From Lophium mytilinum (taxonomy: Eukaryota; Ascomycota; Dothideomycetes; Mytilinidiales; Mytilinidiaceae): a stretch of DNA of 64,000 nucleotides. How positions within the stretch are numbered: position 1 is the first letter of the stretch; the number at the start of each line of letters is the position of its first letter. The stretch spans positions 1,631,736 through 1,695,735 of the forward strand of contig MU004195.1 in assembly GCA_010093605.1 (NCBI GenBank). Direction: 5' to 3'. The notes beneath the pieces were generated by a model. That model saw nothing but the letters and a program-made list of their open reading frames with translations. It was not told the DNA's origin and searched no databases. A program made the translations under genes and the position numbers. Shown here in pieces: positions 30,687 through 45,097 of the stretch.

Positions 30687-32705
30687 TCATAGAATTGTGA
30701 GTTCAGAGAGGGGCCAATTAATACTAGAGTATGGTTCCCTATCGGTAAAAGTACCTATGCGGCGGAAGGTCATGTCGTTAAGAGAGAGTGGCAGCAGAAG
30801 TAGGCCTACGGTATCGGTGCCTCTTTGAAAGAGCTGCCCAAGGACTAGAAAATGAACAGATTCCGAGGTTCTATCCGTCTCGTCAATAGTATCGAGGCAA
30901 AACCATGATCTCTCCTTCTGTGTATCACTAAAGAAATATCTGGGTCTCGTCCTGAATTTTGCAAAATCTTCATCAAGCTGACTCATAAGAACCGATCTAG
31001 AAGGTTTATATGAAGCTTTCCGTAATCCACCTCGAAGAGTAAGTCGTCCGCTGGAAGCTGCTCCGCAACGTAGAGAAGCGTTCTTTAGAACAACATTGCA
31101 GGCAAGAACCTCGCACCACGAAGGGTGGAGACGCTCGACTTCTACGAAGTCGTCTATTGCTGCCCATGACCAAGTAGGCGCTCTATATTCAAACCGCCGA
31201 AACGTTTTCGGGGGAGCAGCATGCTAAAAGAGTTGCGTCGCAAGTTCTACCTTCCAGAGACCACATGCATAGTCGCCAAGCCAGCTGGAGAAAAGTTCGG
31301 CAATGCTACCAATAGCAATCACTCTGTCGTCCGAGTGCGACAATTTTCGTCCACTGAATTCCTTAACGGCCATGATCCAGTCATCTAGACCTTCTTGGGT
31401 GCGGCCAGAAGTAAGCGGTACGTTCTCTTCTGGGGGGGAGAGATATCGGCTCGGCAAAGAGAGGTAACGGGGGTGCTGCGTGCTTCCCCAAGTAAGTGCA
31501 ACCGTTTGATAGTCATATACGAGCTCGCGACTTCCATTAACAAGACGCCGAGGCGATAGATACCATTCTTGAAGAGTCCATCCACGCTGGTTTACGGGCT
31601 CGGCCTGAGGGAAATATCGTGCTTCCAGGACTAGAAATAGAGTTCCCATTTCGTGATTTGGGCATGGAAAAGGAAACGGCACCGAGAAAGACTCCGGTGC
31701 CAACCGGTCTCCCAGGAAGCCATCCTTGGCGGCACTCGCGCTTGCGGCGACAATGGTGACATGCGCCTGCTGGTATATTCTTCCCATGTTGGCCGACTCG
31801 TGGGCTTTGTCGCCCTCCGAATCTTGGATAATGCACAGCGCATCGGTCCACAAGTACTGAAGTCCTAATTGCCGCGCCCAGAAGATTGCGTCTTGGATGC
31901 TGCGAGACAAATCGTCCACGTTGATGCTGTTCAGTCGAGACTCGAGATTAGCCAAAAGCGTAGGAACACCAGTAGGATCTCGGCCCCAACAGTAGGAAAG
32001 AACAGCGTAGCGCCCTGTTCTCCCTCCGGCAAGAAGGAGCCTTGGTTGTCCGGGATGGTCTTCTGGTGACACCTCAATGACTCTTGTAGGCAACTCCATA
32101 TCTCTCTCCTCGAGGCAATGCTCGTGAAATGCGCAATCCCGGATCCAGGCTCTTGCTTCATTGAAACCCTCTTCGGTGTTAACCTCGTGCTTATACGGGT
32201 GGGCTTTAACGAAATCGAAAGCAACGTCGTCTGGATGAGCCCAAGTCTGTATGCCATAACAACTTTCACCAGACGCATTCAATTCTAAGTAGATGTTATC
32301 ATCTCCCTTGTATCCATATGTCGTGAACCTAATTCGGACATTATATGACAGTGACAGGCTTGATAGCTCAAGGCTAGGTTCGGACTCTCTTAGGTACCGA
32401 GAAATACAGAGATGAATCACCCGGCACCAATTGCAGACAGCCTCCGATTCCTGGAGATGGCCATATGGTATATCATATTCATATCTTAAATATTCTCCGT
32501 CGCTATCTTTATCACCGCGACATACTTTAGCAAAGTGGTTGGAAGTGAAGATGTTGTCCCAACACCTTTGACAGACGAGATCTCTCTGCGGCTTCGAGTT
32601 GAGTTGTTGACGTCTAGTAACACGCTGCTCATCGTCTAACGACGAGCTTCTGAAGCGGGAGGGAAGGGTAGATTTTGACGCCTGTTCCCCGACAGGTGTT
32701 GCCAT
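30687..32705 (-). pseudogene. HET-domain (heterokaryon incompatibility) gene with in-frame stop
   Basis: Host allorecognition-type gene. From the ATG at 32705 the frame encodes a zinc-knuckle-like region (CQRCW), then the HET domain: RYAVLSYCWG, LGLQYLWTDALCIIQD, ANMGRIYQQAHVTIVAASAS, and RGWTLQEWYLSPRR. An amber codon at 31226-31224 stops it after 493 residues. The same frame continues without another stop to 30687 with family-like sequence just downstream: RFEYRAPTWSWAAIDDF is the conserved segment that usually follows in HET proteins. The whole frame would be about 670 residues. No splice pair around the stop is convincing. It is either a null allele or a shorter product. Confidence 0.75.
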
Positions 32706-33167
32706 GATGAATGGCAATGATGATGAGAACTGATGTGGTGTACCCACTGAAAGTAGCACCTTGCGAAGGGATCAAATGAGAGTATAGAAATGATGGATGG
32801 ATCCGCAGGCGCTTTCGTAAATTCTGGGAAAGCTGCCGTAGTTTAGAGATATCTACCAGCGTCGGCCGAAGGCCAGAACTCTAAGCCACCACCTGCATCA
32901 CCCTGCAGGTGCTCCGCCTCACTCACAACTCACCGGAATCTGAAACACGGGCGTATCACATATTGACCCGCAAGTTTAGTAGAGATCTGAATGCAAGAGT
33001 CTTAAGTAGTTTTACACGTCTCATTGACATTACGAGAAACAAAACAATCCATATCATTTTCAGCATCTAGCCTTGTCGACCCCTACTAATCCGCCAAACC
33101 CACCTGGAATAGACGCCCCATGCCCACCAAATGCCCCAAACACCACTCTTTCCCCATCCCCAGGAAC
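32706..33167. other. intergenic
   Basis: Between the HET gene start and the 3' end of the GFA-fold gene, both on the minus strand. No gene or repeat seen. Confidence 0.4.
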
Positions 33168-38426: not shown

Positions 38427-39388
38427 CTACCAGCCGCCAGATGGTTCCTGACTCTCCTTTCCTTCACACTGTACCTTCAGGGCAAACCAGGCCTTGTTTC
38501 CCTCCACCAAGAAGAGGTCCGACATCATTTCCCAGACCACGTTATGGGTGCAATCGCATCGCCAATTATGCGTATCTGCGTAATCCTCCCTCGTTGGGGG
38601 TTCGGTTCCCCACGTATCGTTAGGATCAACGTTATATCCGGGTCCAACATAACTGACTTGGCCGCACTTGTGTTCGTTTGAAGAGAAGTGGGGAGTATCG
38701 CGAGCGATGAATAGCTCCTCAACAAACCCTTCGGCGCAGATTCCACGAAGAGAAGTCATCATGAAGTCCTGGAACTCGGGAAAGCCGTACTTCTCGCCGA
38801 AAATCCAGCCTTTCACGAAATTCCACATGTGATCGGTACGCTCAGGGTCCTCCTTCTTTGTTGACTTGTAAGGTGAGGTACGATACGCAGCGCCTTCAGA
38901 CTCGTTGTATCCATATTCGTTTCGCTGGAAGTGAGTCCAGAGTCGGAATGCAGCTGGGTCGTCGTCTGGCAGGCGCAAGACTCGTTCTTCTGCCTCGCGA
39001 AACCCGCCCTTCAGTGCGTTGGCAAAGAATTTGGAGACCTGGTATATGTACCGCTTGTCCGTCATGAACGTAGCTTTGTTGTCTCCGGTGCCTACATGGA
39101 CGGTGATGATGTCGTCGTTCGACTTCACCCTGCTTTATGTTAGTCGGCCTTAGTTTACGGGTAAGAAAGGGCTCACATACTCCATGATAGTCTCAGTTGT
39201 GCAACGGACGTACCGGGCTGGCTCAGTTTCGGCTACGGTTCTGATGGGCGAGCAATGTTCGCAAGTTTCTATCGCAAGATCTTCAGCTTGGAGTTTATTT
39301 GCCATCGCTCGGATCACGAAGGCTTACCTCGAGTTGATGGCTCGATCTCCAGCTTCTGGGCCATTTCAGTTACTTCGTTGGCCGCCAT
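38427..39388 (-). CDS. BTB/POZ domain protein A
   Basis: Exons 39388-39328, 39268-39181 and 39129-38427 (introns 59 and 51 bp) give 283 residues. After a short leader (MAANEVTEMAQKLEIEPSTR) the BTB domain reads IITVHVGTGDNKATFMTDKR, YQVSKFFANALKGGFREAEE and RVLRLPDDDPAAFRLW. A conserved helix FVKGWIFGEKYGFPEFQDFM follows. The last about 90 residues are Cys/Trp-containing and unassigned. Same-strand neighbour of BTB protein B, with about 40% similar sequence and identical intron positions, so they are a tandem duplicate pair. Confidence 0.88.
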
Positions 39389-39675: not shown

Positions 39676-40769
39676 TTACCAACTGTCATTCGGATCCCGC
39701 ACCACATCAACACCTCCGTTCTTTGTGAAGCTGTACCATACGTTCTCTTCGCACAGCTCAGGATGATCCTTCGCTCCACTGACGATCATCATTCCGTTGA
39801 CATTGGCCTGACGCTCGATGTTCGCGCCAACGTGGAAGAGGTGGTCCCGCATCTTCCAGACGCACTGGTCCTTGCCCTCAAAATTGCAGTTGTCACGACC
39901 AACAAACATCTCCTTTGCGAACCCGGTATAATTTTCCATTTCTGAAAAGTCCTCCCATCTCTTGACACGATCGTGGAGCTGTCTGCACATGTTCTCGACC
40001 AGAAAGAATCTCAGAGGTGAGCCCGCAAGCGTATTCTCATAGACGTACTTCATAATGGAGAGAGGTATGCAATATCCAGGTGTTCCATTGGAAGGGGAAC
40101 CGCTGCGCGTGACGCGTCGTAGAATACTCATCAGGAAGTTCTGGAATTCTGGCAAGCTGTATTTTTCCCCGAAGAGCCAGGCCTTGACAAGTTCCCAGAG
40201 GGTCGCGCGAGTTTTGGCATTCGGATGCAACTCCCAGAAGAAGCTACGTGGTTTGTGAGGTGGATTCAGACAGGACTCCCAAGACTTTTTGCGATCGTTC
40301 TTGTCGTAGAAGTCGTGCCAGAGTCGGAAAGAAGATGGCTCATCGTCAGGCAATCGCAAGATACGCTGACTTGCCTCACGGAAGCTCCCTCGAAAAGCGT
40401 TGGCGAAGAAGCTGGAGGCTTTGCAAATGTAGTCCTTTGAAGTTTGGAAGGTCGCTTGGGCGATTCTTCCACCCGCCACGTCGTACTGCCCTGTCCCGAC
40501 AATGATGGTGACCATTTCCTCTCCGGGCCTGATCCTTCACTGCATCAGCTAATACCCCCAGGAAGACCGAGGTCGACTTACTCTAGTAGAGCTTGGGTGG
40601 CATAGCCGGCGATTCCGGGCTCTGGTAGGGATGGCTCTGGATTTGTGCGACTGGTGTACGCCATGTAGGGCTTCCACGACGTTCCTGCACAACGTTAGTT
40701 CTAGAGTCTGTCAATTCATCTGCAGGTGAATAGCGTACCAGTCTGGCTATTGTCCCAATCCGCCGCCAT
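39676..40769 (-). CDS. BTB/POZ domain protein B
   Basis: Exons 40769-40739, 40684-40582 and 40528-39676 (introns 54 and 53 bp) give 328 residues. The leader MAADWDNSQTGTSWKPYMAY and LLEPGEEMVTIIVGTG run into the BTB fold (CKASSFFANAFRGSFREASQ, RILRLPDDEPSSFRLWHDFY). The signature helix is LVKAWLFGEKYSLPEFQNFL. The C-terminus contains CRQLHDRVKRWEDFSEMENY and ends FTKNGGVDVVRDPNDSW. Intron phases match those of protein A. The BTB fold suggests oligomerisation or CUL3 binding; the ligand of the C-terminal part is unknown. Confidence 0.9.
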
Positions 40770-41438: not shown

Positions 41439-43709
41439 ATGACAAAGAGGAAGAAGGCCAAGACCAGCACGCCCAGGGCCACCCCAGCTAAGAAGCGCAA
41501 ATACACCAAAAAAGCCAAAGCCGTCGGCCCCTCCCCACGCACCCGCCCCATCGTCGCCGACTTCTCCTCGCCCGAGCCCACCGCAGTCGCCGTGCGCTCC
41601 TCCGGCCGCGAGCGCAAGCCCTCCAAGTTCTTCGGCGAAGACGACACTCCCGAGCCCGCGCGCGCGCCTCTTGGCTCCATCGTGCCCAAGATCACAACTC
41701 AGGATATCATCGACGCGGTGAGAGACTACAGACCTATCCGCCCACCGACTCCCACACCGCCTCGGTCCCCGACGCCGCCGCCGCGACAGTTCATTAAGTT
41801 CAAGACGCAGCTTTGGTACCCGGCTGAGATCCAGGAGGAGATCCAGCGGAGGGAGAAGCTGCAGAAGGCGGGCGAGGTGGCTGTGCGGGTGTATTTTGAT
41901 CCTGTGATCCATGGGAAGCGGGTGGCGTTTGAGGAGGTTAAGTGGAAGGCGTTGAGGGGGCAGGCGGAGTACTTGCTGGCGTCACATACGACAGTTGAGG
42001 GCTGGGTGGCGTTCAAGAAGAATTGCGAAGACGGGTACTTGGGAGACAAGCAGATGAGATGGGTGTCGCTCTTGGATGTGGATAGAGGTGACTTTGGGCT
42101 GTTTGCGGCGTGGGCGGAGGAGTGGACTGAGCGGAAGGAGGCTGCTGAGATTGCGAAGCTGGAGAAGAGAAAAGAGAGGAGCAAAAGGCGCATTAGACCT
42201 TCTGCTTCCAAAGCTCCTGCTCCCGGACGTTCGGTTCCTGCTGAAGACGTCGATGGAGATACCACTCAGGGTACTGACAAACTGCGGCACGCCTTCGGTC
42301 ACGCAAGCCTCAACGATGGCTCCCAAAGCGCTTCGACCGCCGCTGCGGAGCGCGGTGCCAACGCAATTCAGCCACTGGAGATGGAGATTGAGGAGATGGA
42401 ATGGCCGTCGGTGCACGTGCACCAACAGCGGCAGTACATTGACGAGCTTGTCCGCGCTTGGCTCTTCGCCAACACCTACTTTCTCTCTGAGTTTCAGAAC
42501 TACATCATGCGCTCCCTGATATGGCACACCCGGAAGATGACAGGGACCAGTCTACAATCACACCCCGCAAACCTCGGAGTTGGTCTGCGGGGCTCTTGGT
42601 GTGAGAGCGGGATACCCCTATTCGACGGTCACCTCTTGAAGAAGATCTGGCGAGCCACCGAGGAGCCAAATACCCTAAGTCGTCAGCATCATGAGTGGTC
42701 CGGTGGCAAGCTCAGGGACTTCGTGTATGCAGCGATGGTGGAGGCATATTATCCAGAGAGCGTGCCATCAAGCGTGTGGGGTGCAATCATAGACTGGGAC
42801 GGTGCGCACCGAACGTGCGACCTTGGAGGCAGCCGGCGGGTATGGCAGGTTGGTGATGAGCAGGCTTGCGAGATTACCGCCTGGGATTCCGACACCTTTG
42901 CGGAAAAAGTGAGCCCAAACTTCCTGGTTGACGTGGAGGATAGGAAGAACGAGATGCAGACGCTGATCTGCAAGGACGAGGGGAATCGGAACGTCGTCTG
43001 GGAGCGTGCTCAAGCCAAGAAGCCAAATTACGACAAATACTTGGCGCTGAAGAAGCAGTTGGGACGTCACCGGATGCAGGGCAAGATGACGGGCCCTTCC
43101 ACTCGCAATATTACCTCTGAAGAGAAGGAAGTACATGTAAAAGGAGCTGAGAACGCCCTACATAATACCGGTGTTGGCATTGATCCGGTGCGGAACAATC
43201 ATCGTCGTGTGCGTTTCGACCTGCCCACCGACCACAACGAGGATGAAGATAGGGCTCGACGTCCGTCCCAGAATACCTCGTCCCAGGAGACAGCATCAGA
43301 CCTCGGCGATAGCGCAGTCCGACCATCCACTCCCATTCCTGAACAACTCGATCTCTCCAACACTTATGACAATAGTGGAAACATCTTCGACATCCCCGAT
43401 ATCATCGTGACGGATGTCGACGACGACGGAGTCTCTCCGGAGACTGTGAAAAAAGAGGCTATCGATCTCACCGAGGTTCAAGATGATCATGATGATGAGG
43501 ATGAGAACGAGAGCGAACACGAGACAACCCCGCACACCATTATCTTGGACGACCAGGACGAAGAGTTCCCTGACCCTGTGAACCTTGGGACTATCGACTT
43601 GACCGAGCTGTCAGATGGCCATAGCAGTGATAGCAGCGACAGTGATGAAGAAGAGGGAGAAGGGGACGAGATGGAGGTTGACGGAATTACTACCGGGGCT
43701 GAGGCCTGA
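41439..43709 (+). CDS. large protein: basic N-terminus, BTB-family C-module, SUMO-motif tail
   Basis: A single-exon 756-residue protein with no family name I can give. N-terminus: basic, AT-hook-like (MTKRKKAKTSTPRATPAKKR) with GRERKPSKFF. Residues about 100-240 are a folded-looking block (QLWYPAEIQEEIQRREKLQK, GWVAFKKNCEDGYLGDKQMR), then Lys/Arg-rich. Residues about 333-470 match the part of BTB proteins A and B after their BTB fold: LVRAWLFANTYFLSEFQNYI against LVKAWLFGEKYSLPEFQNFL; the BTB fold itself is absent. The C-terminal 110 residues are acidic with four SUMO-interaction-like motifs: IIVTDVDDD (about 655), IDLTEVQDD (675), IILDDQDEE (701) and IDLTELSD (719). It probably acts in the nucleus. 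Confidence 0.8.
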   Translation: MTKRKKAKTSTPRATPAKKRKYTKKAKAVGPSPRTRPIVADFSSPEPTAVAVRSSGRERKPSKFFGEDDTPEPARAPLGSIVPKITTQDIIDAVRDYRPIRPPTPTPPRSPTPPPRQFIKFKTQLWYPAEIQEEIQRREKLQKAGEVAVRVYFDPVIHGKRVAFEEVKWKALRGQAEYLLASHTTVEGWVAFKKNCEDGYLGDKQMRWVSLLDVDRGDFGLFAAWAEEWTERKEAAEIAKLEKRKERSKRRIRPSASKAPAPGRSVPAEDVDGDTTQGTDKLRHAFGHASLNDGSQSASTAAAERGANAIQPLEMEIEEMEWPSVHVHQQRQYIDELVRAWLFANTYFLSEFQNYIMRSLIWHTRKMTGTSLQSHPANLGVGLRGSWCESGIPLFDGHLLKKIWRATEEPNTLSRQHHEWSGGKLRDFVYAAMVEAYYPESVPSSVWGAIIDWDGAHRTCDLGGSRRVWQVGDEQACEITAWDSDTFAEKVSPNFLVDVEDRKNEMQTLICKDEGNRNVVWERAQAKKPNYDKYLALKKQLGRHRMQGKMTGPSTRNITSEEKEVHVKGAENALHNTGVGIDPVRNNHRRVRFDLPTDHNEDEDRARRPSQNTSSQETASDLGDSAVRPSTPIPEQLDLSNTYDNSGNIFDIPDIIVTDVDDDGVSPETVKKEAIDLTEVQDDHDDEDENESEHETTPHTIILDDQDEEFPDPVNLGTIDLTELSDGHSSDSSDSDEEEGEGDEMEVDGITTGAEA

Positions 43710-44118: not shown

Positions 44119-44625
44119 ATGTCGCTCATCGAACTTCCTATGGAATTGCACATCGAGGTCGCTAGCTACCTTGAAGATGCGTGTTTGAACCGCCTCATCC
44201 AGGCCCATCGCATACTCCACATGCACCTCCAGGAAGAGCTTTATAAGCACGCACTATCCCGGTATCCAAGAGACTTCCATTCCATCGAATGGCGGGACCA
44301 CAAAGGGAGCCTTCCTCTGCGCTCAGCATTGGGACGCGCAATTGACTGGAAGCATCTGGATCTCGCGGAATGCTGGGAGAAAAGAGCACGGCCTGCGCCT
44401 TGAAGTTCCGCACGAATGCCCTGATGGGCTGGGTAGAGGACGTTCGTTGCTGGACGAAATGCGTAGGTGTGTTGAGGAAATGATTGAAGGCAAGGTACCG
44501 AAGGGATACATCTGGGAAGGCTCCCAGTTTCTTGCCCTTGAGGGACCGGGCGACAAGGAAGTGTTTTGGGCTACCCTGGAAGAAGACGACCGCTGTGTGT
44601 GCGAGGACTTTTGGAAAGTATGACT
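44119..44625 (+). pseudogene. F-box-like gene fragment with frame change
   Basis: The first frame (44119-44403) starts MSLIELPMELHIEVASYLED, a clear F-box-like helix pair, and runs to HLDLAECWEKRARPAP. Coding-like sequence then continues in another frame to about 44623 (RLEVPHECPDGLGRGRSLLD, GYIWEGSQFLALEGPGDKEV). No intron with good signals joins them, so I read this as a broken or mis-sequenced F-box/ankyrin-type gene. A cryptic intron is the alternative. Confidence 0.4.
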
Positions 44626-45097
44626 TGAGAGACGCATTTGAAACAACCTACTCCCCCGATACGGATTTGTCAAGATCAAGGCTAAACCTATATCCGTATA
44701 CATCCCAATGTCAAAGCCAATCAATGAATCTTAGGTTGAGATGTTGAATATCACGTACCATCCCCTTTTTCTCGCAGACCTCACATTACGCGTAGTATTG
44801 AAAATGCGCTTCTCCGCTACCTATTCGGAGACATGAAGATGAAGAAAAACTGAAAAATTGAAGAAAAGCTGACCTACCATTGGCGAAAGCACTGTTCGTG
44901 TCACTGTTATTCGATCACAGGAGATTGCCGCCCTTTTAAATACCAATGTCGATCACATAATCTCAGCATTGACCTGACAATTCTTTACCAACCGAATCTC
45001 CGTATATCAAGCTTGGAACCATGGGCATACTCATACTAGAGCCTGAACTAGTCACCAAGTAAGCGTGTCGCTCGATGGCGTCCTTACCCCATCGTCC
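44626..45097. other. intergenic
   Basis: AT-rich. No gene recognised. Confidence 0.4.

Follow-up and report, generated by a model that had tools for sequence, protein, structure and literature searches.

The gene at positions 41439-43709 (plus strand) lies next to two BTB-family genes in the Lophium mytilinum genome and ends in an acidic tail with several short motifs resembling SUMO-interacting motifs (SIMs), which raises the question of what kind of protein it encodes and how that protein is related to its neighbours. The window is the whole stretch of DNA analysed, 64,000 nucleotides long (C15:1631736-1695735), and genome-wide searches covered 43.2 Mb in 24 contigs. The 756-codon frame sits inside an open stretch of 835 codons, frame 1 is favoured by codon scores in each of the six segments tested, and a scan for intron patterns returned no candidate. 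Searches with the whole 756-aa protein retrieved no Pfam family at E <= 10, no relative among PDB sequences, and only the protein itself from its own genome at E <= 0.001. The pattern stretches retrieved from viral contigs and GTDB genomes (6 and 66, respectively) included no relative of the protein. Titles and opening lines of abstracts about fungal BTB proteins, fungal SIMs or BTB proteins combined with SUMO contained nothing recognisable as this protein or as a fungal protein of such design. The features of the gene and of its two BTB-family neighbours, with the basis for each, are as follows.

41439..43709, plus strand: whole gene, 756 aa, one open frame (ORF, codon scores)
41439..41528, plus strand: basic N-terminus, residues 1-30, with a KKRK motif that we take to be nuclear-signal-like (sequence, charge count)
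41529..41780, plus strand: S/P/T-rich stretch, probably disordered, residues 31-114 (composition)
41847..42152, plus strand: probable decayed first BTB part, residues 137-238 (profile and pairwise alignments)
42153..42416, plus strand: linker joining the two BTB-like parts, residues 239-326, 88 aa, basic at first and low-complexity thereafter (alignments, composition)
42423..42542, plus strand: helical segment shared with the BTB paralogues, residues 329-368, corresponding to the last part of the BTB domain (C-terminal end of PF00651; paralogue alignments)
42543..42878, plus strand: region over which the family alignment possibly extends beyond the BTB domain, residues 369-480, with LKKIW...SGGKLRDFV (alignments by eye)
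43395..43511, plus strand: tail repeat copy 1, residues 653-691, with IIVTDVDDD (43401-43427) and IDLTEVQDD (43461-43487) (alignment)
43530..43655, plus strand: tail repeat copy 2, residues 698-739, with IILDDQDEE (43539-43565) and IDLTELSD (43593-43616) (alignment)
39676..40515, minus strand: neighbouring BTB-family gene P0002, 279 aa, the nearest relative of the helical segment (alignments)
38427..39134, minus strand: second adjacent BTB-family gene, 235-codon open frame, with a presumed upstream exon (ORF, alignments)

Residues 329-368 are homologous to the last helices of the BTB domain. Because the Pfam BTB match of the paralogue L017 (residues 13-111, profile positions 11-106 of 110) includes the equivalent helices, this segment can be assigned to the end of PF00651. 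PF00651 itself was not matched in the 756-aa protein at E <= 10 with the whole sequence or at E <= 1 with either part alone, and its curated cut-off was not reached. The initial annotation had described the middle of the protein as sharing a segment with the adjacent BTB proteins, and the alignments confirm this kinship with both neighbouring genes. Its accompanying statement that the protein lacks the BTB fold is probably wrong, and a separate module detached from that fold is unsupported, since what is shared is the helical stretch that closes the BTB domain, and upstream of it, in the right order, about residues 180-236 form a weak remnant of the domain's earlier part.

The signal for this upstream remnant, the N part, is located in about residues 178-236 (207-236 in the profile alignment with the linker left out), and residues 137-177 were placed in the BTB alignment by eye only. 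The N part was compared with a family profile built from 29 ORFs out of 31 matches (the protein itself, L026, and one row without a locus being omitted; Pfam was run on 19 of the 29). The hhalign score was 20.9, and one of 300 shuffles scored as high. The best alignments of the N part to 18 of the 29 paralogues share one register, which was matched by 1 of 600 shuffles and by none of 89 real fragments. When the linker was omitted, with its ends picked after the alignments had been viewed, the profile aligned over both parts with 24.9 bits versus 18.2 for the C part alone, a score that 3 of 3000 shuffled N parts, but none of 259 real fragments, attained. These three tests overlap and are not independent of one another. 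A match of the N part on C17 (E 0.12) was dropped as chance, as the locus looks by eye like a cyclin-H-type gene. We consider it quite likely from these comparisons that the protein carries a decayed BTB domain split by the 88-residue linker, a reading that is supported but not firm. The protein would thus share with the BTB/POZ proteins of the same genome (PF00651) the helical BTB end and, ahead of it as in those proteins, a probable remnant of the earlier part of the domain, whereas the long linker within the domain, the basic N-terminus, the long repeated acidic tail and the lack of a Pfam BTB match set it apart from them.

Pfam BTB matches number 63 genome-wide at E <= 0.01 (matches, not genes) and often lie near each other, as at C11:926-932 kb, C4:99-120 kb and C16:1175-1179 kb. 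Because BTB matches are this numerous and this often clustered, the adjacency of the trio is expected from local duplication, which it suggests, and a conserved three-gene system, as had been proposed for this locus, is unsupported. The window contains another BTB gene, P0003 (23653-24579, minus strand; Pfam BTB 38.4 bits), which has a long acidic C-terminal tail without IDLT, and the lack of a methionine before the BTB match in its frame makes an upstream exon likely. The paralogue L023 (1375-2397, plus strand) continues past the helical segment into a long acidic low-complexity stretch, which shows that other family members also carry long additions. The C-terminus of L017 (619-1695, minus strand) is weakly HYPK-type UBA-like (25.1 bits, cut-off 27), making it possibly another BTB protein with a ubiquitin-linked addition. 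Just downstream of the gene, the region 44119-44650 (plus strand) has a start that appears F-box-like by eye (MSLIELPMELHIEVASYL...); the F-box-like frame stops at 44403 and a neighbouring frame is open to 44623, indicating an intron or a broken gene. Elsewhere in the window there is an F-box gene at 445-2112 and a HET-domain gene (100 bits) at 31224-32759 on the minus strand, some 6 kb away from the closer of the two BTB neighbours; HET, ORC5 and CRT10 are among the window's genes, a content that suggests a filamentous ascomycete.

The tail is a tandem internal duplication of a unit of about 40 residues. Residues 653-691 and 698-739, segments picked by eye after the alignments had been viewed, align with a repeat score of 66 that none of 2000 shuffles reached. 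The alignment superimposes IDLTE of the two copies, whereas their II[VL] cores, though both present, are offset by one residue. IDLTE is encoded by ATC GAT CTC ACC GAG and ATC GAC TTG ACC GAG, with three silent differences and no replacement, which suggests constraint, though over few sites. Two [VIL]DLT motifs occur in residues 600-756, a count equalled by none of 20000 shuffles, and a loose pattern, devised after the motifs had been seen, finds all four tail motifs, with 46 of 20000 shuffles reaching four. A genome-wide DNA pattern for IDLT[DE] (F for L also admitted) gave 53 matches versus 37 for the reversed control, and the sole same-strand pair less than 5 kb apart among the 53 is the one in this gene. 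The 15 residues after IDLTE contain 9 and 6 acids in the two copies; among the 44 other leucine-bearing matches, coding or not (the 53 less the two in this gene and seven reading phenylalanine at the third codon), only 3 have at least five acids, the maximum being six. We regard the tail motifs as non-chance on account of the internal duplication, the retention of IDLTE in both copies, and the pair being the only close same-strand one among the genome-wide matches.

The initial annotation had read four SIM-like motifs in this tail. All four motifs are where it placed them, and they are non-random and lie in a repeated, acidic tail, but five stricter SIM patterns gave no match in residues 600-756. 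The residue preceding IDLT is A or T, not a large aliphatic residue, in both copies, and for this reason the affinity of the tail for SUMO may be low and dependent on the doubling. Binding of SUMO by the tail is plausible, the motifs themselves being putative. A VKKE at 670, the sole candidate of its kind for a SUMO-attachment site, was set aside as within chance expectation. With regard to SUMO itself, the genome contains a SUMO-like exon (L086; 51.9 bits, above the PF11976 cut-off), which by eye fits SUMO. Another candidate, C20:508346, was rejected as a SUMO gene; its translation is presumably ubiquitin with a ribosomal-type extension, again judged by eye.

The proteins that most resemble this arrangement are known SUMO-binding scaffolds and ligases. 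The animal DNA-repair scaffold SLX4/BTBD12 combines a BTB domain with SUMO-interacting motifs, three in the human protein (PMC8599992). The likeness lies in a BTB-type core and several SIM-like motifs in one protein, the motifs here being putative, while the UBZ4, SAP and conserved C-terminal domains of SLX4 are absent from the 756-aa protein in the Pfam search described above. By analogy, SLX4 is the closest known design and the 756-aa protein may work alike, although membership is unsupported by Pfam. The SIMs of RNF4 read IELV, VDLT, VDLT and VVIV, and the SIM core of PIAS1 is VIDLT (PMC3901395); Slx1 of S. pombe binds SUMO through IIDLE with a KD of 78 uM (PMC4726241); and in work on yeast Rad18, inhibition assays employed a VIDLT peptide and, as its mutant, VADLT (PMC3526273). 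The tail cores resemble RNF4 VDLT and VVIV, PIAS1 VIDLT and Slx1 IIDLE without equalling them. The PIAS-type SIM shares the IDLT core followed by a D/E/S-rich run but differs in that A or T here replaces its first V, and the protein has no PIAS Pfam domain. The RNF4 and Slx5-Slx8 ligases similarly have several SIM-like motifs close together, in contrast to which the 756-aa protein lacks a recognisable RING. Because Pfam gave no RING domain and its five cysteines (196, 388, 460, 477 and 511) are scattered, it is unlikely to serve alone as a SUMO-targeted ligase. It appears to be an unusual form of an already known type of scaffold.

The explanation that we favour, at a probability of about 0.48 for the whole, is that a diverged BTB duplicate became a nuclear adaptor whose doubled tail binds SUMO by avidity. 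On this view the gene would have originated next to its relatives in the large BTB family and diverged fast, with much of its BTB signal lost, the BTB domain interrupted by the linker of about 88 residues, and the basic N-terminus and the long acidic tail added. The tail unit (II[VL] and acids, then IDLTE and acids) would then have been duplicated in tandem. The BTB-derived core would make protein contacts, with itself or with its BTB neighbours, and the doubled motifs would bind SUMO, or SUMO on modified partners. We infer the nuclear location from the KKRK-type basic stretch, and likewise infer the SUMO binding and the adaptor role. The N-terminus had also been thought to bind DNA, which is unsupported, Pfam giving no match there at E <= 10. 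Of the broader proposal of an undescribed chromatin- and SUMO-linked adaptor, what stands is the repeated, acidic, SIM-like tail and the BTB kinship, but not the DNA-binding N-terminus or the conserved trio. We think it very improbable that the split BTB core, alone or with the BTB domains of the neighbours, recruits a putative Cul3-type ligase while the doubled tail selects SUMO-modified nuclear proteins, an arrangement that would form a SUMO-targeted ligase with a RING-less SUMO-binding subunit.

Close to the view of the initial annotation is a reading in which the N part is not BTB-derived at all, a neighbouring BTB gene having contributed no more than its last helices to an otherwise unrelated N-terminal protein. 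HMMER on the N part alone gave 0.1 bits, which is not significant, with shuffles scoring up to 8.5 (1955 of 2000 N-part shuffles and 1693 of 2000 C-part shuffles were given a score). Pairwise, the N part matched neither BTB neighbour (Z -0.3 and 0.6). Summed over the 29 paralogues, its score of 858 is unexceptional, being exceeded by at least 10 of 600 shuffles and 6 of 89 real fragments. No confident structural model was obtained either: two AlphaFold models, from alignments of 3 and 4 sequences comprising only the window's BTB relatives, had mean pLDDT values of 39.2 and 44.0, both unreliable. We nevertheless find this reading unlikely, as the signal in the three overlapping tests is consistent in order.

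The same BTB-derived nuclear protein could instead carry an acidic activation or histone-binding tail, in which the repeats contact co-activators, basic proteins or histones rather than SUMO. The tail is certainly acidic (42 D/E among the 117 residues of 640-756), it fails the strict SIM patterns, and P0003 is likewise acid-tailed. Its cores, however, are built of I, V and L and nearly devoid of aromatic residues (2 F, 1 Y and no W in those 117 residues), as befits beta-strand SIMs rather than activation motifs, and IDLTE is kept in both repeat copies, so that we judge this alternative unlikely. That the gene is merely drifting without a kept function, its tail repeats an ordinary low-complexity expansion, would accord with the large and often clustered BTB family and with its low similarity to every paralogue compared. 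It is quite improbable given 756 stop-free codons, codon bias in frame in all six segments and an IDLTE retained through silent differences.

Returning to the diverged BTB duplicate with a doubled tail, if the BTB remnant is real, the BTB domain tolerates a long insertion, which would be one reason that domain libraries miss such members. If SUMO is indeed bound by the tail, acquiring and then doubling one short unit will have made a SUMO reader out of a locally duplicated BTB gene, which would illustrate how fungi may independently evolve multivalent SUMO scaffolds comparable to animal SLX4.
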